From NCBI GenBank assembly GCA_944323575.1, contig CALUTB010000014.1, positions 1-37,123 on the forward strand: DNA of 37,123 bases. Reading direction: 5' to 3'. This DNA comes from an uncultured Mailhella sp. Lineage in GTDB: Bacteria; Desulfobacterota; Desulfovibrionia; Desulfovibrionales; Desulfovibrionaceae. Made by a program: the position numbers and the translations under genes. The first letter of the stretch is position 1; every line of letters begins with the position of its first letter. The notes below the pieces were generated by a model. It was not told the DNA's origin and ran no database searches. It saw only the letters and a program-made list of their open reading frames with translations. Positions 9,402 through 34,939 of this stretch are shown piece by piece.

Positions 9402-9447
9402 CCCTGCTCCCTTCCCCTTATAAGGATCTCCTTTTCCGGAGGACCCC

Positions 9448-13054: not shown

Positions 13055-13069
13055 GCTCTGTATGCCCCG

Positions 13070-13321: not shown

Positions 13322-13360
13322 AATGATTGCAATGATACGATATTAGAAGGATGATATATC

Positions 13361-15146: not shown

Positions 15147-15885
15147 GATATTTCTGATCGGGTTCGGAAAAACATGCAAGCTCACCTGTCGGGGAGCAAA
15201 GAGCTTGTTGGTCGCCCCGCAAGCGATAACAGACTATTTATTAACGCTGTTTTTTTGGACATCAAGAACCGGTACTCCGTGGCGGAATCTGCCTCCGGAT
15301 GATGAGGATTGGAAAAAATACCCATCGTCGGCTTTGTCGCTGAAGGAATCGCGGGGTTCGGGAGCAGCTTCCGGAAGCGGTCATCGTTGAACCTGATTTT
15401 AATGGCTCATGATAGATGCAAGCCACTGCAAGGTTCATCCGCATGCCGCCGGAGCGGTGGGAGGCAATCAGGACAAGAGCCGTACCAAGGGAAGCTCAAC
15501 ACAAAGATACATTTGGCCGTGGATGCTCATGGCATGCCGCTCAGAACTGTTATCACAGAAGATACCAGAGCTGATTGCAAAGAACCTTGCGCAGTGATTG
15601 ACGGATTTGCCGCGGAAGCTCTTTCGGCAGATCAAGGTTTCGACACAGACGCTGTGATTGAAGAGGCTACCCGACGAGATGTGAAAGTTGTAATTCCCCC
15701 GAAAAAAGTCGCAAAAAGAAACGAGACTACGACTGATGTTTGTATAAAGTACGCCACCTTGTTGAGAATGCCTTTTCACATCTCAAAAGGTGGGGTGAAA
15801 TTGCAACCTGTTATGCAAAAAGAAGCGATCTTTTCCTGCTGCCGTCCAAATCAGATGCATGTCGTTATGAGCGGCAATAATTTGA
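15147..15885 (+). pseudogene. Frameshifted IS5-family transposase
   Basis: The pieces, in order across different frames, are ISDRVRKNMQAH, VGRPASDNRLFINAVF, RTGTPWRNLPP, MIDASHCKVHPHAAGAVGGN (first catalytic Asp), TKIHLAVDAHGMPLRTVI, ALSADQGFDTDAVIEEATRR (second Asp), VKVVIPPKK and RHLVENAFSHLKRW (catalytic Glu). The last frame ends inside the right terminal repeat at 15885. At least three frameshifts plus internal stops (two just after the VAESASG segment) mean it cannot make transposase. All three catalytic positions are still readable, so the decay is recent enough to align by eye. Confidence 0.88.
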
Positions 15886-15895
15886 CGACACTATT
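15877..15895 (-). repeat. Right terminal inverted repeat of the IS
   Basis: ATAATTTGACGACACTATT, the exact complement of 15064-15082. It includes the transposase stop codon at 15883-15885. Confidence 0.9.
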
Positions 15896-16990
15896 GAGGA
15901 GACGATGGTCATGTCTTCCGTCTGAACATTCGGAGACCGTACGGGCAGGAACCGTGCTGCCCTGTTGCAAAAGACGGAACCAACGCCTCCGCAACCAGCC
16001 CTCTGCCGTGGAAACCGGAACTTCCCGCCGTTCTGGCGGAAAGTGATCCTGATGCCTTTATTTCAGCGCAGGACGCGGGCGATATCATAAACGCACCGAA
16101 TGCAGGATCGGCTCATGTCCGACCGTATGAAACTGCCACGGCACGTCTTCTGTCCTCCCCTTTTTATGGCGGCTCTGAACAACGATGAAACAGGTCGAAC
16201 AGAGGCAGCGAAGTATCCGACCATGTTCCCGGACTGCTGTGTGAATATGCCGCCGGACGGGAAAGACCCACGGAAGCACGACCGACCGGGGCGGATCTGC
16301 GGACTTGGCCGGTAAACTTGATTCCCGAGTCGTTGAAAAGTCGCATTTGCGATATGCGAACGACGGCAAGAGTGCCCAACAATCCGATATGACGCCGGAA
16401 TCGATAAAAGATGTGCCTCCTCCGCAAAGAAGGAAAAAGACGATCCCGACGGCGTTGATGAGGTTGTTCCCGCAGGATGGGGAACAAAACCGCCGAGGCG
16501 TCGGAAGTCACGCCGAGGCGCGGGTGCAGTTCCATGCGCCGACGATGAACCGGCGAGGGTTCCCCGCCTTCCCCACGTTCTGTGCCGGGTACGGGAAGGA
16601 CTGCGGGCAATGTCGGTTCCTTCATCAGGACAAGGGCCGTTCCGCCTTGCATGGACGGAGGCATGCCCGGACTTCCAGAAAGTGCTTCCGACAAAGGGCG
16701 GCATCACCTCATGCCGGGAGAAAAGACGCTCAGTCGGGCTGAACGCGGAGGTAGCCGCGGTGAGGACGCGGCTCAAACGGCCGCCTCTCCAATGCCCCGA
16801 TAGTCCCGTTCGTTTTGCCTTCCGTGAGGACTGCCCCGAAAGGAGCGAAACTGCCTGTACTATCGTCTTTTTAAGAAAATTCGTATGCCGTCCGATGCAG
16901 TTCGGCGTGGCTTACAAGAAAAATAATTATATTATCGTGTGATTACATGATGTACAGGCTTATGGGAGAATCCGTTGCAGCATGAACGCG
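15896..16990. other. Decayed region between IS and LacI gene
   Basis: About 1.1 kb with no intact gene. One plus-strand frame is open from 15898 to 16188 and, after a single TGA, again to 16392. It reads like real protein in places (ELPAVLAESDPDAFISAQDA, SDHVPGLLCEYAAG, NLIPESLKSRICDM) but has no start, no ribosome site and no recognised family, so it may be a pseudogene. The rest (16400-16880) gives only Arg/Pro-rich frames. Positions 16905-16980 are AT-rich. Confidence 0.5.
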
Positions 16991-18076
16991 TCAGGCGGAG
17001 CGATCCTCACGAAAAGTTTTTTCCTGTGCGCGGGGCGGGATGCAGGTTTTTCTTTTGCAGACGGACGAGCGGAGGTGACAGGATATGCTGAGCGGCTTTT
17101 CCGAAGAAATGCCGTCCACAAACCGATGTACCATATCCAAAAGCTTTTCCTTCTGTGAGGTGACGGCGCACAGCGGAGGGTAATAGACCGATGCAATGTC
17201 GTCATCGCTCAGACATACAAGAGACATGTCTTCCGGACAGGACAGGCCGCATTCCCTGAGATAGGAAATGCTGCCGATAGCCATGTTGCCCGTGGGAGAA
17301 AGAATGGCCGTCGGAGGATGCTTTTTTTCCAGGAACTGTTTCATGATCTGGCGACCGTGATCAAAGGATGATCTCGTCAGTCTGGGCATCTGATTGAGAA
17401 GTACGAGGGAGTTCTCATCAAAGGGCAGTTTCAGCCTTGTCAGGGTTTCCTCAAAAGCACTGAGTCTTCTGTGGGCTCTGCGTATGTTGCTGTAATAGCT
17501 CATGCCCAACCCTATGCGACGATGCCCGGCCTTGACGAGGGTCATCACTGCCTGTTCGATAATGTTCTCATCGACTGGACCGATGAAGTTGATGCGGCTG
17601 TTCGCATCATAGGTATCCCAGAGAACGAGATGGGGAATGTCCCTGCCGAGCACTGTTCTTATGTGCTCATGGCAGTGAAGCCCCGGGCCGATGACTATGA
17701 CGGCTGCCGTTTTATATTGTCGAAATGTAAGAAGAATTTTTTTTTCGTTGTGATCGTCAAAGCCTGAGTTGGCTACAAGCACATTATAGTTGTGCCTTAG
17801 CGCGTAGTCGTGAATGTCTTCCAGGGTAAGCAGGGAGAGATTCTCTCGAAGGTTGCCGATCATGATGCCTATGAGCTTGCTGGAGCTGCTCGACATGGCG
17901 GCTGCCAGGGGATTGTACTGATAGCCCAGAGTATGAAAGGCATTCTGGACTTTTTTCAGCGTGTTGGGACTGAGTTTTTCCGGAGAGTTGATCGCCCGGG
18001 AAACCGTGGCCGTTGAAACTCCGATGAACTCGGCTACGTCTTTCATGGTGATGTCGCAGGCTATGGGATTGGTCAT
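16991..18076 (-). CDS. LacI-family transcriptional regulator
   Basis: 361 residues from the ATG at 18076, which has GAGGA 5-6 nt upstream. Upstream in-frame sequence is not LacI-like. Residues 11-31 form the LacI helix-turn-helix (MKDVAEFIGVSTATVSRAIN). It is followed by the hinge region and a periplasmic-binding-protein-like effector domain (KLIGIMIGNLRENLSLLTLE through PTAILSPTGNMAIGS and SLVCLSDDDIASVYYPP). It is divergent from the DUF917/ABC/AroM operon beginning at 18583, and a LacI-type dyad lies in that operon's promoter, so it is probably its repressor with an imported or derived compound as inducer. The C-terminal tail (HLRSSVCKRKTCIPP) is slightly longer and more basic than usual. 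Confidence 0.93.
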   Translation of the reverse strand: MTNPIACDITMKDVAEFIGVSTATVSRAINSPEKLSPNTLKKVQNAFHTLGYQYNPLAAAMSSSSSKLIGIMIGNLRENLSLLTLEDIHDYALRHNYNVLVANSGFDDHNEKKILLTFRQYKTAAVIVIGPGLHCHEHIRTVLGRDIPHLVLWDTYDANSRINFIGPVDENIIEQAVMTLVKAGHRRIGLGMSYYSNIRRAHRRLSAFEETLTRLKLPFDENSLVLLNQMPRLTRSSFDHGRQIMKQFLEKKHPPTAILSPTGNMAIGSISYLRECGLSCPEDMSLVCLSDDDIASVYYPPLCAVTSQKEKLLDMVHRFVDGISSEKPLSISCHLRSSVCKRKTCIPPRAQEKTFREDRSA

Positions 18077-18127
18077 GGTTTCCTCATGTTCGAATGTGCG
18101 GTCTCGCCGGAAAAGCGGATGGAAAGC

Positions 18128-18156
18128 AGTATGCTGCACAAGTACACTTTAGTCAA
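18128..18156 (-). promoter_or_regulatory. Sigma-70-type promoter of the LacI gene
   Basis: On the minus strand TTGACT (18156-18151) is followed by exactly 17 nt and CATACT (18133-18128). The -10 is about 50 nt upstream of the LacI start codon. Confidence 0.6.
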
Positions 18157-18502: not shown

Positions 18503-18530
18503 TTGACGTTGAAATGTAACCGTTTACAAA
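18503..18530 (+). promoter_or_regulatory. Promoter of the DUF917/ABC/AroM operon
   Basis: TTGACG at 18503-18508 and TACAAA at 18525-18530 with a 16-nt spacer. The spacer contains the LacI-type operator, which fits repression by occlusion of RNA polymerase. The first gene starts 53 nt downstream. Confidence 0.55.
18515..18528. promoter_or_regulatory. LacI/GalR-type operator
   Basis: TGTAACCGTTTACA is a near-perfect 14-bp palindrome with a central CG, the hallmark of LacI/GalR operators. It lies between the -35 and -10 elements of the operon divergent from the LacI gene. Confidence 0.7.
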
Positions 18531-18582
18531 GAAGGAAAAGAGTTCTTAACGCTCAACCGGTTCACGCATGACAGGAGAACGT

Positions 18583-19710
18583 ATGGCCGACCTTACGATC
18601 AGTACGGAACAGGATGTCGAAGATCTGGCATGGGGTGCTTGCTTTCAGGGAATAGGAGGAGGCGGCGTGGTCGCCGAGGGATTGCGGCTTCTCAAGAAGG
18701 CCATTGCGGCTCACGGTCCCGTGACCGCCATAGATGCCGATTCCTTCCCTGACGACGCGTATGTCGTAACCACGAGCTTCATGGGAAACAGAGCTCCGCT
18801 CACCCCCGAACAGGAAGCACAGAAGAAAAGACTCGGCATGGTGGAGTGGAAGTATGAGAACAACCTTTTGGAAGCCCTGCGTTTCATGGAGAAGATTTCC
18901 GGAAAGAAGATCTCCGGAATAGTGCCTTCCGAACTTGGAGGCGCCAATACTCCCGGCCCCATGGCTACGGCGCTCAGTCTCGGCATTGCTCCCATCAATG
19001 GGGACTATACCGGAAAGGCCAAGCCTGAGACCAAGCAGGGCATGCCCTGCATTGAAGGCGTGCCGCTGACGCCCATGACATCTGTGGACAAATGGGGCAA
19101 CAAAGCCGTTGTGTACGAAACGGTGAACAACGCCCTTGCCGAACGCGAGGGAAAAATGCTGGCCACGGCGGCATTCGGCAATACGGCCATGGCCTTTTTC
19201 CTCATGACCGGACGGGAAATGAAGAAATATGTTTTCCGCAACACCCTTACGGAATGTTTTGAAATCGGTCGCCATATGCGTCTGACGCGCGAGGCCGGCG
19301 GGGACGTTCGAAAGGCCCTGCTGGAATTCACGGGAGCCCGCATGCTTTTTGAGGGCACCGTGATCAAAAAGGAATGGGGCATTCCCGACGGTTATTATTC
19401 CGGATACCACTGGCTGGAAGGTACGGGAGCCTGGGCCGGACATAAGTTCAAGGTATGGTTTAAAAACGAAAATCACATCACCTGGCTTGATGATAGGCCC
19501 TATGTGACCACGCCGGATCGGGTGGCCGAGGTGGAAACCTCCAGCGGGCGTCCCATCATGACGCAGGAAATCGAAGAAGGAATGAACATCAGTTTCATGG
19601 CCGTTCCTTCAAGGGCCAGACACCGGGAACCCAAGGCATTGTCGTTTATGGAGCCCCGGCATTACGGCTTTGACATAGATTATGTGTCCATGGAAAAAAT
19701 TCTCAAATAA
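18583..19710 (+). CDS. DUF917 family protein (S-methyl-thiohydantoin desulfurase-like), first copy
   Basis: 375 residues. The ATG at 18583 is chosen because AGGAG lies 5 nt upstream; an ATG at 18568 lacks a site. Conserved features are VEDLAWGACFQGIGGGG (glycine loop, residues 12-28), SFMGNRAPLTPEQEAQKK, the SELGGANTPGPMATALSLG segment and VDKWGNKAVVYE. It ends with EPRHYGFDIDY. The family is named after a methyl-thiohydantoin desulfurase and is related to hydantoinase-like proteins; most members are uncharacterised. It is the promoter-proximal gene of the operon, and a paralog closes the same operon at 27924. It probably acts on the imported cyclic compound, which is inference from family and context. 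Confidence 0.87.
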   Translation: MADLTISTEQDVEDLAWGACFQGIGGGGVVAEGLRLLKKAIAAHGPVTAIDADSFPDDAYVVTTSFMGNRAPLTPEQEAQKKRLGMVEWKYENNLLEALRFMEKISGKKISGIVPSELGGANTPGPMATALSLGIAPINGDYTGKAKPETKQGMPCIEGVPLTPMTSVDKWGNKAVVYETVNNALAEREGKMLATAAFGNTAMAFFLMTGREMKKYVFRNTLTECFEIGRHMRLTREAGGDVRKALLEFTGARMLFEGTVIKKEWGIPDGYYSGYHWLEGTGAWAGHKFKVWFKNENHITWLDDRPYVTTPDRVAEVETSSGRPIMTQEIEEGMNISFMAVPSRARHREPKALSFMEPRHYGFDIDYVSMEKILK

Positions 19711-19726
19711 TTCAAAGGAGATGTAT

Positions 19727-20755
19727 ATGAAAGCAAAACTTGCCTCACTCCTTCTCGCCGCAACTCTCGTTGTTCCCAGTCTGGCGCAAGCCCGGGAAAC
19801 CTTGATCATGACCTGCTACGGCGGGGCATATCAGAGCTTCTTCGAATCGGAAATCATTCCCGAGTTCAGCAAAAAGTACGACTGCGACATCAAGCTTGCC
19901 ATTGGTCTTGCCAAGGACTGGCTGGCGGAGATGCGTGCCAGCGGCAAGGACAATGCTCCCTACGACGTAGTCATGATGAATGAAATCTGGGCCAACCAGA
20001 TGCGTCTGGAAGGATATTTTGCACCGCTTGATGAAGGCAAGATTCCTTATATGAAGGATGCTTTCGTTGTTTTCAAGGATAAAAGCGGCGCCAACTCCGG
20101 CATCATCGGCGTCATTCAGCCCGCAGGCATTGCTTATCTGACCGACAAGGTGAGCAATCCTCCCAAGAGCTGGAAGGATTTGTGGAAGCCCGAGTACAAG
20201 AACAAGCTCGGCCTGTACACGGTTACGAACTCCATGGGCGGTGAGTTTCTGCTGACGGTGGGCGATGTATGGTTCGGCGATCAGAAGCAGACCTCCAAGT
20301 CCATTGACAAGATCAGGGAACTCAAGCCGTTCAAGCTGTCCGAATTTTCCGGTGACATGGAAAAGCAGCTCACGCTCGGCGAAGTGGAAATCGGCGTTCT
20401 GGACACTCCCGCCATTGCGCGCTTGAAGAAGGCCGGCGTGAACATAGGCTGGTCGGAACCTGCCGAACACATGATCATGTTTGAACAGGTCTTTTCCGTG
20501 CATACCGGTTCCAAGCACAAGGATCTTGCCCAGGCCTGGATCAATTATCTGCTGAGTCCCGAGATCCAGACCAAATTCGTCCGTCGTTTCTATACGACCC
20601 CCTGCACGCAGGGCGTGGAAGTACCTGACGACCTCAAGGAATACATCCCTGTCGGTCCTGACGGCGTGAGCCGCATCAAGGTGTTTGACTGGGAATTCTT
20701 CAATGCCAACAAGAGCCGCATCATCAGAGAATGGAATCAGAAGATAGCCCGTTGA
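19727..20755 (+). CDS. Spermidine/putrescine-type ABC substrate-binding protein
   Basis: 342 residues. The ATG at 19727 is 6 nt after AAAGGAG; an ATG at 19721 abuts that site. Residues 1-22 are a Sec signal peptide (LLLAATLVVPSLAQA). The mature protein begins RETLIMTCYGGAYQSFFESE, the typical opening of PotD/PotF-like and related family 1/8 binding proteins, and contains YDVVMMNEIWANQM, QPAGIAYLTDKV and PKSWKDLWKPEYKNKLGLY. It delivers the solute to the permeases downstream. The C-terminal SRIKVFDWEFFNANKSRIIREWNQKI matches the family end. The actual ligand is unknown, and polyamine use is not implied by family membership alone. It is followed by a GC hairpin. Confidence 0.92.
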   Translation: MKAKLASLLLAATLVVPSLAQARETLIMTCYGGAYQSFFESEIIPEFSKKYDCDIKLAIGLAKDWLAEMRASGKDNAPYDVVMMNEIWANQMRLEGYFAPLDEGKIPYMKDAFVVFKDKSGANSGIIGVIQPAGIAYLTDKVSNPPKSWKDLWKPEYKNKLGLYTVTNSMGGEFLLTVGDVWFGDQKQTSKSIDKIRELKPFKLSEFSGDMEKQLTLGEVEIGVLDTPAIARLKKAGVNIGWSEPAEHMIMFEQVFSVHTGSKHKDLAQAWINYLLSPEIQTKFVRRFYTTPCTQGVEVPDDLKEYIPVGPDGVSRIKVFDWEFFNANKSRIIREWNQKIAR

Positions 20756-20772
20756 TGCAGGTGTAACGACAT

Positions 20773-20794
20773 GGGGGCCGGACGATCGGCCCCC
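20773..20794 (+). promoter_or_regulatory. mRNA hairpin after the binding-protein gene
   Basis: Perfect 8-bp stem GGGGGCCG/CGGCCCCC with a 6-nt loop, 17 nt after the stop codon. It has a weak TGTTCT tail. It probably attenuates or stabilises the message so that binding protein exceeds permease, as in the other ABC operon at 6645. Confidence 0.6.
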
Positions 20795-20815
20795 TGTTCT
20801 AACCGGCGGCCTTTT

Positions 20816-20845
20816 CCTTACATACAATCACCTTACATACAATCA
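20816..20845 (+). repeat. Exact tandem 15-bp duplication before the ATPase gene
   Basis: CCTTACATACAATCA occurs twice in a row (20816-20830 and 20831-20845), 22 nt before the ATPase start. It is either a recent slippage duplication or a small regulatory direct repeat. Confidence 0.8.
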
Positions 20846-20867
20846 ACGGTAAACGACTGGAGCTGAC

Positions 20868-21956
20868 ATGGCTAGGGTTATACTCGATTCCCTCAAAAAG
20901 ACGTATGGCGGAAATCTTATCCTCAACAACATTTCCACAGTGATCGAGAACGGGGAACTCGTTTCCCTGCTTGGCCCCAGCGGATGCGGAAAGACGACGA
21001 CGTTAAGGTGCATTGCCGGCTTTGAGATTCCCGACAGCGGAACCATTACCATAGGCGATACCGACATTACCACCATGCTGCCGGAACAGCGGGATATCGG
21101 CATGGTTTTTCAGAACTATGCGCTTTTCCCGCACATGACGGTGTTCGACAACGTTGCCTTCGGGTTGCGCATGAGAAAGGTGTCCCGCGAGGAGATCTCG
21201 CAGAGAGTGCATCATATCATGAAGGTCGTCGGACTGGAAGGATACGACGCAAGGTATCCCCGCATGCTTTCCGGCGGTCAGCAGCAGCGCGTCGCCATCG
21301 CCCGTGCCCTGGTCATCCGTCCCCGGCTGCTTCTTCTGGACGAACCTCTTGCCAACCTGGATGCAAAACTCCGGGAAGAGATGCGCTTTTATCTGAAAAA
21401 GCTGCAGCGGGAAGTCGGCATCACCATGATCTACGTCACCCATGACCAGTCTGAAGCGCTTGTTCTTTCCGACCGCATCATCGTCATGTTCAACGGGCGC
21501 ATTCATCAGTGCGCGGCGCCGGAGGAGCTGTACCGTCATCCCGCAACGCTCAGCGTGGCCAACTTCATAGGTCTCATCAATCCCTTCGATGCCCGATTCC
21601 GGGGACTGGAGAACGGATGCGCTCTGGCGGAAGCATCCTGCGGAGTGCTCCGGTGCGAGAATTTCATTTCGGAACAGTTCAAGGACATGGCTCCCGGTAC
21701 GCCGGTCAAGGTGGGCATACGTCCGGAAAGCCTCACCATTTCTTCCTACTCTCCGGAAAAGCTTCCCGGTCTGAACATCATCGGCGGCACTGTGCAGGAA
21801 AAGGTTTACATCGGCAATATGTTCGACTACCGGGTGGCAACGCCCGGCGGGGAAGTCGTCCGCGTTCAGGCCAGCCCCTCGGTGGATATTCCCATGGGCA
21901 ACGCCTGCTGGATAAGCGCGGCTTCTGTCGATACCCTTCTTCTGCCTCTGGAATAG
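20868..21956 (+). CDS. Spermidine/putrescine-type ABC ATPase (PotA-like)
   Basis: 362 residues. GGAG lies 6 nt before the ATG. Walker A is GPSGCGKTT (36-44), Q-loop MVFQNYALFPHMTV, signature LSGGQQQR (134-141), Walker B LLLLDEP (154-160) and H-loop VTHDQSEAL. A C-terminal TOBE domain (about residues 270-360, GIRPESL and VYIGNMFDYRV) is typical of PotA and MalK-like ATPases, where it serves regulation. It energises the PotB/PotC-like permeases encoded next. Confidence 0.95.
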   Translation: MARVILDSLKKTYGGNLILNNISTVIENGELVSLLGPSGCGKTTTLRCIAGFEIPDSGTITIGDTDITTMLPEQRDIGMVFQNYALFPHMTVFDNVAFGLRMRKVSREEISQRVHHIMKVVGLEGYDARYPRMLSGGQQQRVAIARALVIRPRLLLLDEPLANLDAKLREEMRFYLKKLQREVGITMIYVTHDQSEALVLSDRIIVMFNGRIHQCAAPEELYRHPATLSVANFIGLINPFDARFRGLENGCALAEASCGVLRCENFISEQFKDMAPGTPVKVGIRPESLTISSYSPEKLPGLNIIGGTVQEKVYIGNMFDYRVATPGGEVVRVQASPSVDIPMGNACWISAASVDTLLLPLE

Positions 21957-21965
21957 GAGGTCTCC

Positions 21966-22832
21966 ATGGCTGTCACCAAAGCGCAGCAGGCGGGGTCACG
22001 TCTTCTTCTCTTTCTTCCCGCCGCTTTGTGGATCATGATTTTTTTCGTGCTCCCGTACACTTTTCTCGGTTACGTCAGCTTCAAGCCGACAAGTTCATCC
22101 AGCGCCTATCTGCCCGGCTTTACGCTGGACAACTATGTCTTCAATCTTACGGATTCTTTTTTTTGGGTCATTCTGGCTGAAACGCTGCTCGAAGGCGTGG
22201 CCACGGTGCTGATCTGTCTGCTCTTCAGCTATCCGCTGGCCTATCGTCTGGCCAGAAGTCGTTCCCGGCACCGCAGTCTCCTGTACATGGTGGTCATTTC
22301 TCCCCTGCTCGTGGGCGTGGTCATACGCTGCTACGGCTGGATGGTGCTGCTTGCCGACAAGGGCCTCATCAATGATCTTCTGCTCAAAACCGGCATCATC
22401 GATGCTCCCCTGCCGCTTATGTACAATATGTTCGGCGTCATGGTGGGGCTGGTTCAGGTATATATGCCCTATATGGTGATTTCCCTTACCGGCGCCATCC
22501 AGCGCATCAATCCGGAACTGGAATACACGGCGCGCAGTTTGGGTGCCAGCCGGTTTACGGCATTTCGCAAGATAACGTTGCCCATGTCTCTTCCCGGCAT
22601 CATGTCTGGTTCCATTCTGGTGTTCGTGCTGACCATCAGCTCCTATGCCATTCCGCTGCTCTTGGGCGGCAATAAAACGCTGACCACGCCTCTGCTTATC
22701 GTGCAGACGGCGCTGGATGCCTTTGACTGGCCGGGCGGAGCTTCCATGGCCGTTATTATGTTTGTCATCGTCGTTACCTTGCTGAGCCTTTACATCAAGG
22801 TGCTCATGCACGCCATGAGGGGGATGAAGTAA
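21966..22832 (+). CDS. ABC permease, PotB-like
   Basis: 288 residues; AGGAGG precedes the ATG 10 nt after the ATPase stop. It has about six transmembrane helices, starting LLLFLPAALWIMIFFVLPYTFLGYVSF. The EAA coupling motif is ELEYTARSLGASRFTAFRKITLP at about residues 180-203. The insert after helix 1 (SSSSAYLPGFTLDNYVFNL) is typical of PotB/PotH. It forms a heterodimeric pore with the next gene, which starts on the final base of its stop codon. Confidence 0.93.
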   Translation: MAVTKAQQAGSRLLLFLPAALWIMIFFVLPYTFLGYVSFKPTSSSSAYLPGFTLDNYVFNLTDSFFWVILAETLLEGVATVLICLLFSYPLAYRLARSRSRHRSLLYMVVISPLLVGVVIRCYGWMVLLADKGLINDLLLKTGIIDAPLPLMYNMFGVMVGLVQVYMPYMVISLTGAIQRINPELEYTARSLGASRFTAFRKITLPMSLPGIMSGSILVFVLTISSYAIPLLLGGNKTLTTPLLIVQTALDAFDWPGGASMAVIMFVIVVTLLSLYIKVLMHAMRGMK

Positions 22833-23644
22833 TGAGGGAACAGAAAAAAAATCTTACGGACCGATTCATCGATCTGATGGTGTTTTTGGCCTACGTATTT
22901 CTGCTTCTGCCTACCGTCATCGTCGTGCTTGCGGCGTTCAACGGCGGCGAGTACCTTCATTTCCCGCCTGACGGCTTCTCCCTGAAGTGGTTTTCCAAGC
23001 TTTTTGCCACGGAACAGATGATGGAGTCATTTTTCTTCAGCATCCGTCTTGCGCTGGCGGCATCGGTGACATCCACGCTCATAGGACTGGGAGCCGCGCT
23101 TTATGTGGTGCGCTATGCAGGCAGGCTTGCTTCCGTGCTTCGCCCCTACATACTCTCTCCCCTCATGCTGCCGTCCATTCTTACCGGTCTTGCGCTCATG
23201 ATTTCATTTTACAGCACAGGCATAGGAGGAAAGAGCTTTCTCGGTCTTTATGCCGGTCATACTCTTATCACCACTCCATACGTGTTTCTGGTGGTAAGCA
23301 GCGTGCTGTACAACTTTGATTACTCCATGGAAGAGGCTGCGCGCAATCTGGGGGCAACCAGACTCCAGACCTTCTTCTACGTCACGCTTCCCCACATCAA
23401 GAACGGCATCATAGGATCGGGAGTTTTTGCCTTCATCACCTCCTTCGATCAGTTCCCTCTGTCGCTGCTTCTGACCGGCCCCGGATATTCCACGCTGCCC
23501 GTGCAGATGTTCGACTATCTCCGCTTTGAATTCGATCCCGTGGCGGCTGCCATCGCCACGATCAATATCGTGCTCGCCTACGGCATGATGTTCCTCATGG
23601 AGCATTCCGTGGGGCTGAAAGTGCTGTACGGCGGAAAGAAATAG
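22832..23644 (+). CDS. ABC permease, PotC-like
   Basis: 270 residues. The start overlaps the PotB-like stop by one base (TAATG). Six-helix topology, with the start FIDLMVFLAYVFLLLPTVIVVLAAFNGGEY and the FSLKWFSKLFATEQMM loop typical of PotC/PotI. The EAA motif is MEEAARNLGATRLQTFFYVTLPHIKNG. It completes the importer and is followed 9 nt later by the first AroM-family gene. Confidence 0.93.
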   Translation: MREQKKNLTDRFIDLMVFLAYVFLLLPTVIVVLAAFNGGEYLHFPPDGFSLKWFSKLFATEQMMESFFFSIRLALAASVTSTLIGLGAALYVVRYAGRLASVLRPYILSPLMLPSILTGLALMISFYSTGIGGKSFLGLYAGHTLITTPYVFLVVSSVLYNFDYSMEEAARNLGATRLQTFFYVTLPHIKNGIIGSGVFAFITSFDQFPLSLLLTGPGYSTLPVQMFDYLRFEFDPVAAAIATINIVLAYGMMFLMEHSVGLKVLYGGKK

Positions 23645-23653
23645 AGGCGTTGC

Positions 23654-24325
23654 ATGAAGAAGCTGGGACTTGTGAGCATCGGACAGGCGACGGATCGGGA
23701 TTTCGTTCCCATCATCCGTGAGATCGTGGGCAATGACGTGGAGCTTGTCGTGCGCGGAGCGCTTGACGGGCTGACGGATGTTCAGCTTGCAGAAGCAGCT
23801 GCGGGAGAAGCGGAACATCCCGTGGTGACGGAACTTGCGGACGGACGGTCCGTAAGAGTTTCCAAGCCGAAGCTGGTACCGCTCATCAACAGCGTGCTGA
23901 GCGGCATGGCTGCCGACGGCGTGAGGCTGGCGTGTCTCATGTGCACCGGCAGCTTTGAGGGGCTTGAAATTCCGGAAGGGCTTGCGCTGCTGGAAGGGCG
24001 CAGAGTCATAGATCATGCGGTTCTTGCCGTGTGCCCGCCGGGAGCCAGACTTGGAGTTCTGGTTCCTCTCAAGGAGCAGGAAGCTCTTTCCGGCGGAAAA
24101 TACCGCGCTATGGGCTACGAGGTCGTCTGCGGACATGCCAATCCCTACGGAAGCAGAGAGGAGCTTTCGGCCTGCGCGGAAACATTCCGTGGCTGTGCCG
24201 CAGTCGTTCTGCATTGCATGGGATATCTTCGTGAGCACAGGGACATCGTGGCCAGAGCCGGCAATGTTCCTGTATTGGAAGCCAATGCCGTTATGGGACA
24301 TCTGGCCTGCGAACTTCTTTTCTGA
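23654..24325 (+). CDS. AroM family protein, copy 1
   Basis: 223 residues. It starts MKKLGLVSIGQATDRDFVPI, the typical opening of the AroM family. Two cysteine motifs stand out: CTGSF (C97) and HCMGY (C188). HPVVTELADGRSV and SGGKYRAMGYEV are also shared with copies 2 and 3. AroM is of unknown biochemistry despite its historic name next to aroL. Paired cysteines in a protein of this size recall the two-cysteine mechanism of aspartate/glutamate/hydantoin racemases. A racemase-like role on the imported compound is my inference, not an established function. It is the first of three tandem paralogs in the operon. Confidence 0.87.
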   Translation: MKKLGLVSIGQATDRDFVPIIREIVGNDVELVVRGALDGLTDVQLAEAAAGEAEHPVVTELADGRSVRVSKPKLVPLINSVLSGMAADGVRLACLMCTGSFEGLEIPEGLALLEGRRVIDHAVLAVCPPGARLGVLVPLKEQEALSGGKYRAMGYEVVCGHANPYGSREELSACAETFRGCAAVVLHCMGYLREHRDIVARAGNVPVLEANAVMGHLACELLF

Positions 24326-24335
24326 GGGAGAATCC

Positions 24336-25013
24336 ATGAAAACTCTGGGCCTGCTGGCCGTGGGGCAGAGTCCCCGCACGGATTACGTGCCCGTCATCTC
24401 CTCTTTTACGGGGCCTTCCGTGCGCATTGTGGAAAAAGGCGTTCTGGATGGGCTCGACCGGGCGCAGATGTCGGCGCTTGCACCTCTTTCGCCACAGGAA
24501 CATCCTGTGGTGACGAGACTTGCCGACGGCAGTTCCGTGACCATGTCGAAGGCGGAGATGTCCGGTATCGTCAACGATAAGCTGCGCGAGTTTGCCCGAA
24601 GCGGCGTGGATCTTGCCGTGCTCATGTGCACCGGCGATTTTCAGGGCATTGTCTGTCCGGAAGGGCTGCATATGCTGTACGGCAAAGACATCATAGACGG
24701 TTGCGTGCGCGCCGCCGTGCCTGCCGGTTCCAGACTCGGCGTGCTGGTTCCTCTGGCGTCGCAGGAGGCATTTTCGGGCCGCAAGTTTTTCGACATGGGC
24801 TATGATGCGGTTACGGCTCATGCCAGCCCTTACGGTTCCATGGAAGAGATTGAGAAGGCGGCTTCTGCCTTTCGCGGATGCTTTGCCGTGATTCTGCACT
24901 GCATGGGATATGTGCGCAGGCATCGGAAAGCCGTTGCCGAAATAAGCGGTGCCATGGTTCTGGAAGCCAATGCCCTGGTAGGACATGTGTGCTCGGAACT
25001 GCTTTCGTCGTAG
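24336..25013 (+). CDS. AroM family protein, copy 2
   Basis: 225 residues; GAGGGAG precedes the ATG, 10 nt after copy 1. It starts MKTLGLLAVGQSPRTDYVPV, with CTGDF (C98) and HCMGY (C189), HPVVTRLADGSSV and SGRKFFDMGYDAV. It is the closest relative of copy 1 by eye. The C-terminus ELLSS lines up with copy 1 ELLF. It presumably acts in the same step or on a stereo- or side-chain variant. No missing catalytic-looking residue was seen. Confidence 0.87.
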   Translation: MKTLGLLAVGQSPRTDYVPVISSFTGPSVRIVEKGVLDGLDRAQMSALAPLSPQEHPVVTRLADGSSVTMSKAEMSGIVNDKLREFARSGVDLAVLMCTGDFQGIVCPEGLHMLYGKDIIDGCVRAAVPAGSRLGVLVPLASQEAFSGRKFFDMGYDAVTAHASPYGSMEEIEKAASAFRGCFAVILHCMGYVRRHRKAVAEISGAMVLEANALVGHVCSELLSS

Positions 25014-25025
25014 ACGGAGTATGCG

Positions 25026-25694
25026 ATGAAGAGACTCGGTCTTTTGTCCATAGGCGAAACGCCTCGTCCGGATATTCTGTCCGTCATGCATCGGGAGCTT
25101 CCCGATACGGAACTTGTGGAATACGGCATTCTGGATGCTCTTGATGAAAAGCAGCGGCAGGCGCTGAAGCCCTTGCCGGGGGATTTTCCTCTGGTGTCCC
25201 GGAAACGGGACGGCTCGCAGTTCAGCCTGGGGAAAAGGCAGGCTGCCACGCTCATGGAACAAGGGCTTCGCCGTCTGTACGAGCAGGGAATAACGGTCGT
25301 TGTGCTGCTGTGCACTTGCCGTTTTTCGCTGAACATTCCGGATGGCATGCTGGTGGTGGAGGCAGGAAGAGTCATCGATGCTGCCCTTGAAGCGCTGGCT
25401 CGCGACGGCGTAACGGCGGGACTGCTTACCCCTCTTCCCGCTCAGGCCGACGAACTTGCCGAATACTATGCACATCTGCCCGGCCGCATGGTAACGGCCT
25501 CTGCATCTCCCTACGAAGACGTGCACCTTGCCGAAGCGGCTGCGGAGCGCCTTAAAGATGCGGATTTCGTCTTTCTGCACTGCATGGGATACACGGAGCC
25601 TTACAGAGCCGCTGTGCATCGCGTATGTGGGTGTCCCGTCATGCGTGCAGGCAGTCTTGTAGCACGCTTTACGGCTGAGTTGATGAACTTCTAG
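25026..25694 (+). CDS. AroM family protein, copy 3 (divergent)
   Basis: 222 residues, 12 nt after copy 2. It starts MKRLGLLSIGETPRPDILSV. Both cysteines are retained, C96 in CTCRF (where copies 1 and 2 have CTG) and C186 in HCMGY. The middle is diverged: FPLVSRKRDGSQF replaces HPVVTRLADGSSV, and the SGGKY/SGRKF loop is lost. The changes suggest a different substrate or a heteromeric partner rather than simple redundancy. Confidence 0.86.
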   Translation: MKRLGLLSIGETPRPDILSVMHRELPDTELVEYGILDALDEKQRQALKPLPGDFPLVSRKRDGSQFSLGKRQAATLMEQGLRRLYEQGITVVVLLCTCRFSLNIPDGMLVVEAGRVIDAALEALARDGVTAGLLTPLPAQADELAEYYAHLPGRMVTASASPYEDVHLAEAAAERLKDADFVFLHCMGYTEPYRAAVHRVCGCPVMRAGSLVARFTAELMNF

Positions 25695-25702
25695 GAGCAG
25701 GC

Positions 25703-26497
25703 ATGTTTTATCCCCGTATTGATGCAGACAAATGTGTCGGTTGTTCCGCATGTGTCAAGGTATGCCCTTCCTCTCAGCTTTGCCTGCGGGAAGGAAAGGC
25801 CGCCGTTTGTGCAGCGGTGCCTCGTCCCTGCCACGGATGCGGGCACTGCAGCGCTGTTTGTCCGCAGGATGCCGTCGGCATTTGGCAGGACGATCATGAA
25901 CTGGAAAAGCCTTCCGTGGAGTGCGGCAACTGGAGAATCCCTGCCGACAGACTTGCCGTTTTTCTCCAGATGCGTCGCTCCGTTCGCTTTTTCAGTCCGC
26001 GTCCGGTGGACAAGTCGTTGCTCCTTGAGCTGTTCGACAAGGTGCGTTGGGCACCTACGGCCTGCAACCGTCAGGATGTCGGCTGGCTGGTGCTGACGGA
26101 GCCTGATCTTAGGAAGCGACTGGGAGAGGCTATTGCCGAGTGGGCTTTGACATCGGAAAATTATCGGAGCATCGGAGAAGAGTATCGCCGCGGACATGAC
26201 ACGGCACTGCGCAATGCTCCGTGCGTCATTCTGGCTCATGGTCCGGCCGAGGTGCCGACCAGCGTTCAGGATTGTGCCGTTGCTCTGGAGGACATGGAAC
26301 TTTTGCTGGCCTCGGCCGGCCTCGGAAGCTGCTGGTCCGGTCTTGTCGCCCACATGGCTGCGGAACGCCCCGATCTGACGACGTTCCTCGGCATTGACGA
26401 GGAACGTCAAATTTTCGGCGGACTCATGGTGGGCTGGCCGGATGTGACATTCCGACGGGTACCGCCCCGCAAGGCTCCCGCCGTTGTATGGAAATAG
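25703..26497 (+). CDS. Ferredoxin-nitroreductase fusion protein
   Basis: 264 residues; AGGAG precedes the ATG, 8 nt after the third AroM. Two [4Fe-4S] binding motifs occupy the N-terminus: C11-x2-C14-x2-C17-x3-C21-P and C43-x2-C46-x2-C49-x3-C53-P. From about residue 75 follows a nitroreductase (FMN) domain with MRRSVRFFSPRPVDKSLL and RWAPTACNRQDVGWLVL. The later SAGLGSCWSGL is typical of the family. The protein would pass electrons from the clusters to FMN to reduce (or dehydrogenate) an electrophilic group. In an anaerobe this may feed on ferredoxin. Its place in the operon suggests a redox step on the imported compound. Confidence 0.9.
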   Translation: MFYPRIDADKCVGCSACVKVCPSSQLCLREGKAAVCAAVPRPCHGCGHCSAVCPQDAVGIWQDDHELEKPSVECGNWRIPADRLAVFLQMRRSVRFFSPRPVDKSLLLELFDKVRWAPTACNRQDVGWLVLTEPDLRKRLGEAIAEWALTSENYRSIGEEYRRGHDTALRNAPCVILAHGPAEVPTSVQDCAVALEDMELLLASAGLGSCWSGLVAHMAAERPDLTTFLGIDEERQIFGGLMVGWPDVTFRRVPPRKAPAVVWK

Positions 26498-26540
26498 GAA
26501 GAAGTTATGTCCGTGCGGAATGTGGAAGAAGTTATGTCCG
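26497..26540 (+). repeat. Direct 17-bp duplication carrying two ribosome-site/start units
   Basis: GGAAGAAGTTATGTCCG occurs at 26497-26513 and 26524-26540, separated by 10 nt. The 27-nt offset keeps the frame, so both copies can start the M20 protein, at residue 1 or 10. Confidence 0.85.
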
Positions 26541-27742
26541 CCCTGCTGGCGGATGAGAGGGTGCGGAAGGCGCTTGCTTTTCTGAAGGACGATCAGGAAA
26601 GAAAGATTCAGGAGCTGAAGGAAATGGTGGTCGTTTCCGGCGCTCCGCATACGGAGTCGGAAATCCGGTCTCCCATGTTTCTTTCCCGTCTGAAGCAGAA
26701 TGGTCTCAAGGACTGCTTTACGGATGCCGTGGGCAATGTTTTCGGCTTCATACACGGCAGGGATCAGGCACGCGTTCTGGTGGAGGCCCATTTGGACACC
26801 GTGTTCGGACCGGAAGTTCCTCTCAATCTTATTGAGGACGATGACGGTACGTTGCGCTGCCCCGGCATTTGCGACAATACGGCCTCCATGGCCACGGAAC
26901 TTTCCCTCATACGCGCGATTCTCGCCTGCGGCCTGAAGCCCGTGAAAACACTCATGCCGGGCGGGACGGTAGGTGAGGAGGCGCCGGGCGAGGCCCGAGG
27001 CGTGAGACATATTATGAAGACGCAGAAGAATCTTGCCGCATACGTCTGCCTTGACAGCGGTCATGATTTCGACGTCATCAGTTCGGCCGTTTCCTGCAAG
27101 CGTCACGAGATCACGCTGAAAGGCCCCGGCGGGCACAGCTGGAACAACTGGGGAAGAGTGAATCCCGTGCACGCCATAGGCCGGGCCATCTCCATGATGG
27201 CCGACATCGAACCCGTACGGTCTCCGAAGACGACATACAATGTCGGCGTGCTTCATGGCGGAACATCCGTCAATGCCATTGCGGCGCAGGCTTCCATGCA
27301 CATTGACATACGTTCTCTGGACGACAGCGAAAAAGCAGCCCTGGAGAAGCAGATTCTCGACTGCATCCGGCAGGCCGTCGATGAGGAAAACCGCCGACAT
27401 CCGGATTCCGCGCCGCTTATTCTGGAGGACCGTCCCTACGGCGACAAACCCGGCGGCAGCATTCCCGATGACGCCGTCATCGTTCAGGCGGCTCTAGCCT
27501 CGGCCAGAGCCGTGAACATCGAACGCAAGGTTTGCGCTCCGGCGAGCACCAATGCCAACTTTCCCATAAGCGCGGGAATCCCTGCGTTGTGCGTGAACAG
27601 CAACGGAGCATGCGGCAATCTTCACGCTCCGGACGAATGGTATGATCCTGAAAATGCCTGGAAGGGCGCTCAGGCGCTTTTGCTGCTCCTGTTTGCGCTG
27701 GCAGGTCTGGAGGGCGTGACGGAGCCTCTGCTGCAGGCATGA
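26507..27742 (+). CDS. M20-family metallopeptidase (second copy)
   Basis: 411 residues. Motifs: EAHLDTVF (H95, D97), GICDNTA (D123), GTVGEEAPG (E157, E158), GGHSWNNWG and GGTSVNAIAAQ, and a C-terminal CGNLHAPDEWYDPE. Metal and base residues are all present. M20 enzymes cleave amino-acid amides, including N-carbamoyl-amino acids, acyl amino acids and peptides. Next to DUF917 and AroM proteins, an N-carbamoyl or ring-opened product is plausible. The start is ambiguous: an exact 17-bp duplication (26497-26513 and 26524-26540) gives two GGAAGAA-ATG units 27 nt apart in frame. The first ATG is used here. It is a paralog of the protein at 13361. Confidence 0.92.
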   Translation: MSVRNVEEVMSALLADERVRKALAFLKDDQERKIQELKEMVVVSGAPHTESEIRSPMFLSRLKQNGLKDCFTDAVGNVFGFIHGRDQARVLVEAHLDTVFGPEVPLNLIEDDDGTLRCPGICDNTASMATELSLIRAILACGLKPVKTLMPGGTVGEEAPGEARGVRHIMKTQKNLAAYVCLDSGHDFDVISSAVSCKRHEITLKGPGGHSWNNWGRVNPVHAIGRAISMMADIEPVRSPKTTYNVGVLHGGTSVNAIAAQASMHIDIRSLDDSEKAALEKQILDCIRQAVDEENRRHPDSAPLILEDRPYGDKPGGSIPDDAVIVQAALASARAVNIERKVCAPASTNANFPISAGIPALCVNSNGACGNLHAPDEWYDPENAWKGAQALLLLLFALAGLEGVTEPLLQA

Positions 27743-27923
27743 CGGGAAGATGATGCAGGCATATGGTCGGCTGTGATTTTTGGAACGGCCCTGCCCGTCC
27801 GGAACCCGTCCGACTGCAATGGAACATGGCCCCGGAAAGATGTCCGGGACATTCCGGATGAGAAGAGTTTTTGTACTTTCCGTCCCTCCGGAATGAAGTC
27901 AACCCTTTCAAAGCGAGGTTGTT

Positions 27924-29048
27924 ATGAGCGGCATTATTCTCAAGTCCCAGCTTGATGTTGAAGATCTTACCTGGGGTGCCACGCTTCTCGGTGTAGGCGG
28001 GGGCGGAACCCCTGCGGAAGGACACAAGCTTCTGAGTCGTGAGATTGCGGCCAAGGGAAGCATTGAGTGTGTAGATCCCATGTCTCTTCCCGACGACGCG
28101 CTTACGGTCTGCGTGACCTTCATGGGCAACCGTGCGCCGCTCACCCCCGAACAGGAAGCACAGAAAAAGACCTTGGGGCTTACGGAATGGAAATATGAAA
28201 ACAACATGGTCGAGGCCGTGCGCTTTTTCGAGAAGATCATGAACCGGAAGGTTGAGGCCCTCATCATTCCCGAGCTCGGCGGTGCCAACACTCCCTCCCC
28301 CATCGCCACGGCTTCCATTCTCGGCATCAAGGCCGTGGATGCCGACTACTGCGGCCGTGCTCTGCCCGAAGTGGCCCAGTCCGGTTCCTGTCTCATGGGT
28401 GAGAGCATGACGCCCATCGTATCCGTGGATAAGTGGGGCAACAAGGCCGTTGTTTATGAAATCGTGAACGAGGCTCTGGGCGAACGTCTCGGCAAGATGC
28501 TGGCCGTTGCAGCATTCGGCAACACCGCTCTTGCTCTTTCTCCGGTTCCTGCTTCCGTCATGAAGAAGGCCACCGTGCACGGAACGGTCAGCGAATGCGT
28601 CGGCATCGGCCGCTGTGCTCGCGAAGCCAGGGAGGCGGGCAGGAACATGGTGGAAGCCGTCATGGCGCATACCGGTGCCAAAAAGCTTTTCCAGGGCCGT
28701 CTCGTTCGTGCGGAATGGAGCGTCAAGGACGGGTATCTGGACGGCTACAACACGTTTGAAGGCGAGGCCGAATTCAGCGGACACACGCTGCGTACCTGGT
28801 TCAAGAATGAGAACCACATAGCGTGGCTGGATGACAAGCCCTATGCCACGAGCCCCGACATGATCTGCCAGATCGAGTACAATCTCGGCCGTCCTCTCCT
28901 GAACAACGAGTGCAAGGAAGGACAGAGCTTCGTCATTCTGGGGCTGCCGGCCAGAGATCTGCATCTGCAGGACGGCCATCTGTCCATGCTCGATCCCCGT
29001 CATTACGGATTCGATATTGACTATCTGCCTTTGAAGGGACGGCTGTAG
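27924..29048 (+). CDS. DUF917 family protein, second copy
   Basis: 374 residues; AGGTTGTT precedes the ATG. It shares with the first copy VEDLTWGATLLGVGGGG, TFMGNRAPLTPEQEAQKK, PELGGANTPSPIATASILG, VDKWGNKAVVYE and the ending DPRHYGFDIDY, so these are clear paralogs. Unlike the first, it lies 181 nt after the preceding gene, and that gap could allow separate expression, though no strong promoter was found. It is followed by two hairpins that end the cluster. The two copies may form a heteromer or handle two related substrates. Confidence 0.87.
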   Translation: MSGIILKSQLDVEDLTWGATLLGVGGGGTPAEGHKLLSREIAAKGSIECVDPMSLPDDALTVCVTFMGNRAPLTPEQEAQKKTLGLTEWKYENNMVEAVRFFEKIMNRKVEALIIPELGGANTPSPIATASILGIKAVDADYCGRALPEVAQSGSCLMGESMTPIVSVDKWGNKAVVYEIVNEALGERLGKMLAVAAFGNTALALSPVPASVMKKATVHGTVSECVGIGRCAREAREAGRNMVEAVMAHTGAKKLFQGRLVRAEWSVKDGYLDGYNTFEGEAEFSGHTLRTWFKNENHIAWLDDKPYATSPDMICQIEYNLGRPLLNNECKEGQSFVILGLPARDLHLQDGHLSMLDPRHYGFDIDYLPLKGRL

Positions 29049-29367: not shown

Positions 29368-30978
29368 TTATGCTTTCAGGCGCGGAGCGACGGGCCGGAT
29401 GCCGCTCTCCGGCTCCTGCCGGACCATGGGGGAAAGTTCCGGAGACGGATCGGAGCGCAGAAGCTCTTCCGCATGCTGCCCGAAGTCCATGCCCGCCTTC
29501 AGCGCGAGCACCTTGTCCTTCAGTTCATTGTCGTCCGGCTCTCTTCCCGAACGGACATCAGGATCGTTCTGAAGACCGCTGAAAATCCGCGCGCGCATGA
29601 CTTCCGGCGTCTGTCTGCCGAAAACGGCGTCAATGACCGCATCCGTGCGACTCTGCAGACAGGAGCGGCCGGACATGTAGGCAAGCACGCTCCGCCTGTC
29701 CCGGCCGTTCAGATCTAAATCCAGCATGAGCTTGGCGACCTGCCTGCCGTCCATCGTTCCCCCCGAGCGGTCGATGAGGGCACGTATTCTGCGTGCACCC
29801 AGCATGCTTGCCGGCGCATTGTTCCCTCCCTCGATGCCGTTCAGAACCTCGGCTTCCGCCCTGTCCTTCGTCTCCTTGTGAAAACCACCCGTGCGTATCA
29901 TGTTCAACCGGTCCGTCACGGTCATGCCGGGATTTTCCCGGAACGCCCGGTCCAAAAACGCCAGTTCCTCCGTCACGGAAACACAGCGCAGAAGCTCGCG
30001 CTCCTCCAGATCGCCGCGCACCAGAAGACGAACGGCGTCTCTCTGCTCACCGTCCATGTTCTCCGTCAGCTTGTACATACCCGCCATCCGCTCTTCGAGC
30101 GTCGCCTCTTCCGGCAGATCGTCGAGCTGCGTCAGCACCCGACGTCCGGCATCCTCCACGGCCTGTTTCCTGCGGTCCGCTTCGAGCCGCGCCGCCTCGG
30201 CCCGCCGTCTGGCATCAAGCGCGGCGGCATGATGGCGTATGCGTTCGTTCACGCTGCCTGCGCTTTCGCCGAGCACGGGAGCGAATCTTTCGGCAGCGCG
30301 GGAGGCTCCGGCGATGTCGTCATGATTGAGATGGCCGTCGATCACGCCGAAAGCCGCGCTTTTGCGCACGTCGTTCAGCACGGCGGTATTGTCGAGTCCC
30401 GGACGCATGGCGTTCACCATGCCTTCCAGATTGCCGAAGCTGTACTCCAGCCACTCGTCGTTGTCGTAGTTCTGCGACACCTGATTCCGAAAGTCGGAAA
30501 GCGCGCCCTCGAACACCGAGGCATTCCACGCCTCGCGCTGCTCGTTGCCGTATCTTCTGCCCTGTTCGGCAAAGTGCAGCACGCTTCCTGCGGCCTGCCG
30601 CTCGAACTCTTCGGCAAAGGCGCCCTGAAAGCCGCCCTCCTCCAGATACTTCTGCGCCCGCTCCCCGGCAAACGAGGCAAAGTGCCGTTCCGCATCCACG
30701 GCCGCTTCGCCCCGGTTTTCCTGCATATAGCGGTCGCGCTCCGCGGAAAGATCGGCGTTCAGCTTCTGGAGCGACTGCGACACGCGGGCCGTCTCGTCGG
30801 AAACGTACCGTTTCACGGCAAGGTCGGTCAACTCTCCCCCGACATCGAGCAGCGAGGAAAGAACCCGTGTTTCGGCAAAATCCGCCGCATGGCCCACGGA
30901 AGGAAGCGCATTGCCGCTCTGCACGCCGGGAACCTGCACGGCGCGGGGTACGTTGTCATAGGTACGCACGCGGATCAT
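29368..30978 (-). CDS. Phage internal virion protein (T7 gp15-like position)
   Basis: 536 residues from the ATG at 30978, with AAAGGAGG upstream. Long helical, highly charged protein: MIRVRTYDNVPRAVQVPG, then a coiled-coil-like block (SQSLQKLNADLSAERDRYMQ) and repeated Ala/Arg/Glu helices. The C-terminal half (about residues 350-480) has globular segments such as MTVTDRLNMIRTGGFHKETK. No signal peptide or membrane span. The order tail-tubular A, tail-tubular B, small Ala-rich virion protein, then this one matches the late operon of podoviruses. The protein is probably an internal or ejected virion protein. The identification rests on order and architecture more than on motifs. Confidence 0.7.
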   Translation of the reverse strand: MIRVRTYDNVPRAVQVPGVQSGNALPSVGHAADFAETRVLSSLLDVGGELTDLAVKRYVSDETARVSQSLQKLNADLSAERDRYMQENRGEAAVDAERHFASFAGERAQKYLEEGGFQGAFAEEFERQAAGSVLHFAEQGRRYGNEQREAWNASVFEGALSDFRNQVSQNYDNDEWLEYSFGNLEGMVNAMRPGLDNTAVLNDVRKSAAFGVIDGHLNHDDIAGASRAAERFAPVLGESAGSVNERIRHHAAALDARRRAEAARLEADRRKQAVEDAGRRVLTQLDDLPEEATLEERMAGMYKLTENMDGEQRDAVRLLVRGDLEERELLRCVSVTEELAFLDRAFRENPGMTVTDRLNMIRTGGFHKETKDRAEAEVLNGIEGGNNAPASMLGARRIRALIDRSGGTMDGRQVAKLMLDLDLNGRDRRSVLAYMSGRSCLQSRTDAVIDAVFGRQTPEVMRARIFSGLQNDPDVRSGREPDDNELKDKVLALKAGMDFGQHAEELLRSDPSPELSPMVRQEPESGIRPVAPRLKA

Positions 30979-31003
30979 CGGAACAACCTCCTTTGTTCGG
31001 GCA

Positions 31004-31642
31004 TCAGTGTCTGACGGCCGTGGACGTCCAGCGGCCGAGGGCGCGGTCGAAGAAGGGATTTTCGGCCGTTTTTGCGGCGGAACCGGTTCTGAGCGCGCCG
31101 GAAGCACCGCCGAAACCGCCGGCCAGGGCATAGGTGCCGAGTCCGGAGGTCAGGCCGGAGAGACCGGCGGTGAGCAGCGTGGAACCGAGTCCCTGTACCG
31201 TGCTCTTGTAGTAGCTGGCCTGAGCGTCGTAGTTTTTTGCTCCGGTCAGGGCGGCGTTCACGTTCCGGCGGGCGGCCCACTCGCTCACCGCCTTCCGATA
31301 GCGGTTGTCTCCCACGTCCTGCGCGTAGCGGGAGGCATTGCCCTTCATGACGTCCATGGCGCTGCCGGAACTCATGTCCACGCCGAGCGCGCCGAACGAC
31401 GCCGCGTTGCCCGCCTGAAGATCGGCGTACTGCCGCGTCAGTGCGTTTCGTTCCCTGTCGAGGTTCTCAGACTCGATGCGTCCCTGTTCGGCCGCGATCT
31501 TCGCCTGATTGCGGGCCTGCTGCGCCTGCGCTTCGGCGATGCCTGCCCTATGCTTCGCCTGCTTGTTCCGTGCGTCGGCATCGGCAATGCCGGACAGGGC
31601 CGAAAGACCGCCTGCCGCAAGAGCCAGAGTCATGGCACCCAT
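31004..31642 (-). CDS. Phage internal virion protein (T7 gp14-like position)
   Basis: 212 residues. The ATG at 31642 follows GGGAGG and lies 1 nt after the stop of the tail-tubular B-like gene. It begins MGAMTLALAAGGLSALSGIA (hydrophobic) followed by a Gln/Ala/Arg coiled coil (HRAGIAEAQAQQARNQAK). It then continues GVDMSSGSAMDVMKGNASRY, and near the end come Gly-rich hydrophobic stretches (LTAGLSGLTSGLGTYALAGG). This amphipathic, Ala-rich layout is typical of ejected virion proteins of podoviruses. Confidence 0.75.
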   Translation of the reverse strand: MGAMTLALAAGGLSALSGIADADARNKQAKHRAGIAEAQAQQARNQAKIAAEQGRIESENLDRERNALTRQYADLQAGNAASFGALGVDMSSGSAMDVMKGNASRYAQDVGDNRYRKAVSEWAARRNVNAALTGAKNYDAQASYYKSTVQGLGSTLLTAGLSGLTSGLGTYALAGGFGGASGALRTGSAAKTAENPFFDRALGRWTSTAVRH

Positions 31643-31643
31643 A

Positions 31644-34792: not shown

Positions 34793-34939
34793 GACATATG
34801 CTCCTTTTCCTGCGAGTCTAGCAGGCGGGAGCAATGCGGCACACGGCGGACACTGGCGTTCCGGCCGATTTTGTGTCATGCTCGGCGGATGCCGCTCCGT
34901 TCTCCGGCGGAAGGCGGCGATCAGGAAAGGATGGATCGC

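Follow-up and report, generated by a model that had tools for sequence, protein, structure and literature searches.

Three tandem AroM paralogs with a predicted racemase-like fold in a probable uptake and degradation operon of Mailhella

Three AroM genes in one operon

What would a bacterium of the genus Mailhella, a gut sulfidogen, do with three diverged AroM proteins encoded side by side, and are these proteins racemases? The genes lie in a 37,123-nucleotide stretch of DNA (the window), a contig of a 2.77-Mb Mailhella genome (Desulfovibrionaceae). The original prediction placed three tandem AroM paralogs within 2 kb, and its coordinates proved exact. Copy 1 (23654..24325, 223 amino acids), copy 2 (24336..25013, 225 amino acids) and copy 3 (25026..25694, 222 amino acids) are complete genes on the plus strand, the listed 332-residue reading frame of copy 2 beginning too early. 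Their products match the Pfam family PF07302 over the full length with E values of 3.2e-51, 5e-52 and 7.9e-47 and scores of 174.4, 177 and 160 bits, respectively (gathering cut-off, 23.8 bits), and they are the only AroM proteins encoded in the whole genome. Over their alignment copies 1 and 2 are 52% identical, copies 1 and 3 33%, and copies 2 and 3 35%. Both cysteines on which the prediction had focused are present in every copy at the residues given, namely C97 and C188 in copy 1, C98 and C189 in copy 2, and C96 and C186 in copy 3, which has an extra cysteine (C98) in a CTC motif.

The AroM name traces to a 1986 E. coli sequence paper, as cited in PMC11055893. In the open-access literature we found no experimental paper on AroM and no assayed AroM protein, and the sole functional statement found there is a prediction (PMC11055893), which already reports the likeness of predicted AroM structures to hydantoin and Asp/Glu racemases and the clustering of AroM genes with DUF917. 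E. coli AroM, encoded in the aroL-yaiA-aroM transcription unit, belongs to the same PF07302 family as the trio; however, E. coli-type proteins have serine at the first cysteine position and another loop in place of PRxD, whereas the Mailhella copies have a different gene context and, at 156.5, 149.9 and 144.3 bits, fall below the 198-bit cut-off of the E. coli-type equivalog NF007788 (PRK10481).

All genes of the operon (18568-29048) lie on the plus strand. The operon begins with a DUF917 (S-Me-THD-like) enzyme, DUF917a (18568..19710; PF06032, 3.4e-34; PF20906, 3.6e-43), followed by the genes of an ABC importer: a PotD/PotF-like solute-binding protein (19724..20755), whose PDB relatives include polyamine-binding proteins, a PotA-like ATPase (20868..21956), and permeases A (21966..22832; PF00528, 4.7e-12) and B (22832..23644; PF00528, 1.3e-16). 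The AroM trio comes next, then a protein in which a two-[4Fe-4S] ferredoxin is fused to a nitroreductase-like flavin domain (25703..26497; PF00881, 4.6e-30, and Fer4 families), an M20 metallohydrolase related to poly(aspartic acid) hydrolase (26507..27742; PF01546, 1.3e-14; PDB 7ljh, 1.8e-59) and a second DUF917 enzyme, DUF917b (27924..29048; PF06032, 2.7e-39). From permease B through the three AroM genes to the ferredoxin-nitroreductase gene the gaps are 9, 10, 12 and 8 bases, with a GAGG/GGAG-like motif ahead of each start codon in the AroM stretch.

A LacI-family regulator is encoded divergently from the operon (16991..18139, minus strand; Pfam LacI, 2.1e-13; Peripla_BP_3, 4.8e-18) and is 77-92% identical in the other operon carriers. 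Pattern matching and alignment predict that the palindrome TGTAACCGTTTACA (18515..18528, plus strand), ahead of the operon, is a LacI-type operator. The pattern matches once in the window, against 0.01 matches expected, and among 111 loci it recurs exactly only in the orthologous promoters of the three other carriers, at the same place.

The two DUF917 enzymes are 52% identical and represent a second duplication within the operon. Neither reaches the cut-offs (440 and 450 bits) of the thiohydantoin desulfurase and S-methyl thiohydantoin desulfurase equivalogs NF058529 and NF058532, DUF917b scoring 73.9 bits and DUF917a 45.1 bits, and by sequence comparison they appear to be distant relatives of these desulfurases, related to them but not the same enzymes. 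DUF1177 and hydantoinase/oxoprolinase A (PF05378), the usual partners of AroM, were not found in the Mailhella genome. An ergothioneine or thiohydantoin pathway, which the presence of DUF917 had brought to mind, is not claimed, since neither DUF917 protein attains a curated cut-off and PF05378 was not found in the genome.

In many lineages AroM genes neighbour those for DUF917, DUF1177, hydantoinase/oxoprolinase, Dpp or OPT transporters, PepE or M20 peptidases, and PF01177-type racemases. The clusters with cyclodipeptide-oxidase-like genes described in PMC11055893 combine AroM, DUF917 and transport genes, as in Mailhella; in Mailhella, however, AroM is triplicated, DUF917 is duplicated, the importer is PotABCD-like, and a nitroreductase with a ferredoxin domain stands in contrast to the CDOA/CDOB pair of those clusters.

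Upstream of the operon the window holds a second uptake and degradation cluster (4243-14614), which may serve the same substrates. It encodes a polysaccharide-deacetylase-like protein, an oligopeptide-type solute-binding protein, a permease, an SDR protein, a gamma-glutamyltranspeptidase, two Opp/Dpp ATPases and an M20 enzyme that is 51% identical to that of the AroM operon. A gene with a transposase DDE domain (15309-16046) separates the two catabolic clusters, and a few hundred bases past the operon probable prophage genes occupy the minus strand (29368-37123), including a match to a nozzle protein at 31644-34235.

Predicted fold and equivalence of the cysteine columns

No solved AroM structure was detectable by sequence, and the trio does not match PF01177 (Asp_Glu_race) at an E value of 0.001, PF07302 being its only Pfam match. 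The relation to racemases becomes visible only at the level of profile-profile and structure comparison. AlphaFold2 models of copies 2 and 3, built from 39-sequence alignments, have pLDDT values of 95.4 and 95.3, respectively. Among solved structures the copy 2 model matches hydantoin racemase (2eq5; Z 16.5, 3.3 Å over 195 residues), maleate isomerase (4fq7) and arylmalonate decarboxylase (3dg9), the latter two both at Z 16.2, and allantoin racemase KpAllR (3qvj; Z 14.7), as well as glutamate and aspartate racemases, while the copy 3 model matches the glutamate racemase MurI (5hj7; Z 16.5) and 2eq5 (Z 15.9). Comparison with Asp/Glu/hydantoin racemase folds, which the original prediction had put forward as a check, thus comes out in its favour for both copies: they are predicted to adopt the two-domain, pseudo-symmetric alpha/beta fold of the superfamily, with Z scores of 14-16.5 over ~190 residues.

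In the Asp/Glu racemase fold the catalytic cysteines sit at strand ends, and the copy 2 model places its cysteines likewise, C98 immediately after strand 93-97 and C189 after strand 184-187. Comparison by hhalign of 78 AroM sequences with an Asp/Glu-racemase set (probability 97, P 5.9e-11) aligned C98 and C189 with the cysteine pair of a hydantoin-racemase relative, and a smaller comparison gave the same pairing. These column comparisons covered the racemase side of the superfamily only. The relative itself aligns to 2eq5 and to KpAllR, whose catalytic cysteines are reported to be Cys79 and Cys184 (PMC12661438). One cysteine per domain in equivalent columns, the mark of the Asp/Glu racemase superfamily, is therefore found in AroM by hhalign. 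As judged from models and alignments, the trio would share its fold and both catalytic cysteine columns with hydantoin and allantoin racemases, although identity to 2eq5 and KpAllR is 19% or lower and the substrate-side loops differ.

A racemase-like reading of the trio is accordingly well supported at the level of predicted fold and aligned residues. The likeness to cofactor-independent racemases in the original prediction holds to this extent, and racemisation itself is what we infer from it. We propose that the three proteins are probably cofactor-independent racemases or epimerases of the Asp/Glu racemase superfamily, acting in a LacI-regulated uptake and degradation operon.

Divergence of the copies and cysteine states of the family

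Among 19 Mailhella genomes searched, four carry AroM, each with exactly three copies, only one of these four genomes being more than 90% complete. The whole operon is syntenic in the three further carriers, which have the same genus classification; one of these assemblies has it divided between two contigs, with copy 3 truncated at a contig end. In an uncultured Mailhella genome the operon proteins are 87-99% identical to those described here. The AroM copies evolve faster than the DUF917 enzymes, with between-species identities of 70-89% versus 91-97%. Orthologs of every AroM copy have dN/dS ratios of 0.09-0.21 by a simple counting method, with pS reaching 0.65 and dS hence approximate for distant pairs, and these sequence comparisons indicate that each copy is under purifying selection.

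The eleven full-length Mailhella sequences form one group in a tree of 75 AroM proteins (support 95/91, or 93/87 without long rows), with the branching order ((copy 1, copy 2), copy 3). Orthologs cluster by copy, and the duplications therefore predate the split of these Mailhella species. Duplication with divergence, as originally described, is thus old and maintained. The pairing of copies 1 and 2 (support 100/99) is firm and is the sole duplication that we take as secure on the sequence tree; a placement of copy 3 with two other Desulfobacterota AroM sequences was not rejected (p-AU 0.16), and the trio is not taken as a proven single expansion.

Each copy carries its own marks. Copy 2 has the family-typical loop GQSPRTD (GQSPRxD), together with CTG and ASPY. 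Copy 1 has GQATDRD, the PR being replaced by Thr followed by Asp or Glu in all four species, so that position 14 is acidic (Asp or Glu), in contrast to the basic Arg found in 61 of 76 sequences; it also has NPY instead of SPY. The change of CTG to CTC in copy 3 (Gly100 to Cys) is real, fixed in 4/4 carrier species and found in none of 74 other sampled AroM sequences. However, the loss by copy 3 of an HPVVT-LADG and SG-K loop pattern, asserted alongside it, falls away: copy 3 has lost no family trait at these loops because both patterns belong to copies 1 and 2 only. In its DG loop copy 3 reads SRKRDGSQ, close to sequences of the wider family such as SRLRDGTQ in Cupriavidus.

The cysteines are not invariant across the family, a point on which the original prediction had made the racemase comparison depend. 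Counts in an uneven sample of 78 AroM sequences, not to be read as frequencies, are 56 Cys/Cys, 8 Ser/Cys, 6 Cys/Asp, 6 Ser/Ser, 1 Thr/Ser and 1 Tyr/Cys; several lineages have thus lost one or both cysteines, while the trio and most relatives keep the pair. The Ser/Cys proteins form the E. coli clade and the Cys/Asp proteins are the single-copy AroM of other Desulfovibrionaceae. At six such Desulfovibrionaceae loci DDMGF replaces xCMGY, which removes the second cysteine, and the AroM gene adjoins that of an ABC-transporter ATPase. An unbalanced pair has a precedent in the superfamily, Thr83/Cys197 of EcL-DER, as cited in PMC12661438.

Of the seven Ser/Ser or Thr/Ser proteins, six come from alphaproteobacteria or a proteobacterial MAG and have genes next or close to those of DUF917 and a Cys/Cys AroM, as does a further, frame-split copy in Mesorhizobium; for the remaining one, a Ser/Ser protein of Shinella, no AroM partner is encoded within 8 kb. 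All seven tandem or near-adjacent pairs identified consist of a Cys/Cys copy and a Ser/Ser or Thr/Ser copy. The alphaproteobacterial pairs resemble the Mailhella trio in being adjacent or near-adjacent paralogs beside DUF917, but one copy of each pair has lost both cysteines, as none has in Mailhella, and they accompany Dpp importers and hydantoinase/oxoprolinase, unlike the trio. In Mesorhizobium sediminum the Ser/Ser gene (locus L051, 8938-9596) is split over two frames, owing to a pseudogene or a sequencing error.

These pairs bear on whether the Mailhella copies form a heteromer or a set of specific enzymes, both of which the original prediction had suggested. It is unlikely, though possible, that the three assemble into a single hetero-oligomer in which the family-typical copy 2 is joined by copies 1 and 3 in the role of divergent or regulatory subunits. 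The all-or-none occurrence of the trio in the genus and the spacers of 10 and 12 bases between copies would suit it, as would the uniform composition of the seven alphaproteobacterial or MAG pairs, which fits an active subunit with an inactive or modified one; against it, the Shinella Ser/Ser protein is encoded with no other AroM inside 8 kb, and a set of specific enzymes is favoured over a heteromer because all three Mailhella copies keep both cysteines. We regard as doubtful the broader proposal that AroM sets are obligate multi-subunit isomerases, in which paralogs of different cysteine states would form a hetero-oligomer and only some sites would be canonical racemase sites. Its members would be the Cys/Cys and Ser/Ser copies in alphaproteobacteria and, in Mailhella, the family-typical Cys/Cys copy with the copies bearing Arg14-to-Asp/Glu and CxC. 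We know of no heteromeric arrangement of this kind in the Asp/Glu racemase superfamily.

Proposed function of the trio

For the preferred reading of the copies as separate racemases, a mechanism can be outlined. Each AroM subunit would consist of two pseudo-symmetric domains with one cysteine at a strand end in each; one cysteine would deprotonate an activated C-H and the other would reprotonate it from the opposite face, a two-base 1,1-proton transfer. The partners in the LacI-regulated operon would be the two ring-acting DUF917 enzymes, the M20 hydrolase and the ferredoxin-nitroreductase. The transporter of the operon may import a small ring or peptide-like compound, or a few of them, on which DUF917 would carry out ring opening or desulfuration, M20 hydrolysis and AroM the equilibration of stereoisomers. 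AroM would probably interconvert D and L stereoisomers of an intermediate resembling a hydantoin, a cyclic imide or a peptide, allowing stereospecific hydrolases to use all of it.

Decarboxylases and a maleate cis-trans isomerase of the superfamily share this fold, and for this reason the fold and cysteines do not fix the reaction. The copies could be non-racemase isomerases or lyases, resembling maleate isomerase or arylmalonate decarboxylase, that take an unsaturated ring intermediate as substrate in concert with the ferredoxin-nitroreductase. This is a rather improbable alternative: 4fq7 and 3dg9 fit the copy 2 model as well as racemases do and the operon encodes a ferredoxin-linked flavin reductase, but arylmalonate decarboxylase has Gly at the first cysteine position (PMC4996985), where all three copies have Cys, and both cysteines pair with hydantoin-racemase columns in profiles compared with the racemase side only. 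Neutral or dosage duplication yielding redundant copies is very improbable, despite the adjacency and 52% identity of copies 1 and 2, given paralog-specific active-site residues fixed across four species and purifying selection on each copy.

Separate specificities of the three racemase-like copies are most likely. They would handle related compounds that differ in side chains, since variation among the copies affects loops predicted to border the active site. The operon also duplicates DUF917 in parallel with AroM, which favours several related substrates rather than simple dosage.

The AroM family need not consist entirely of racemases, because other lineages lack one or both cysteines. A map of the Cys/Cys, Ser/Cys, Cys/Asp and Ser/Ser states separates the AroM proteins that would be able to use a two-cysteine mechanism from those that would not, and E. 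coli AroM, being of the Ser/Cys kind, is a poor first test case. The Mailhella locus presents three diverged natural versions of AroM side by side in one regulated operon, together with their predicted partner enzymes.
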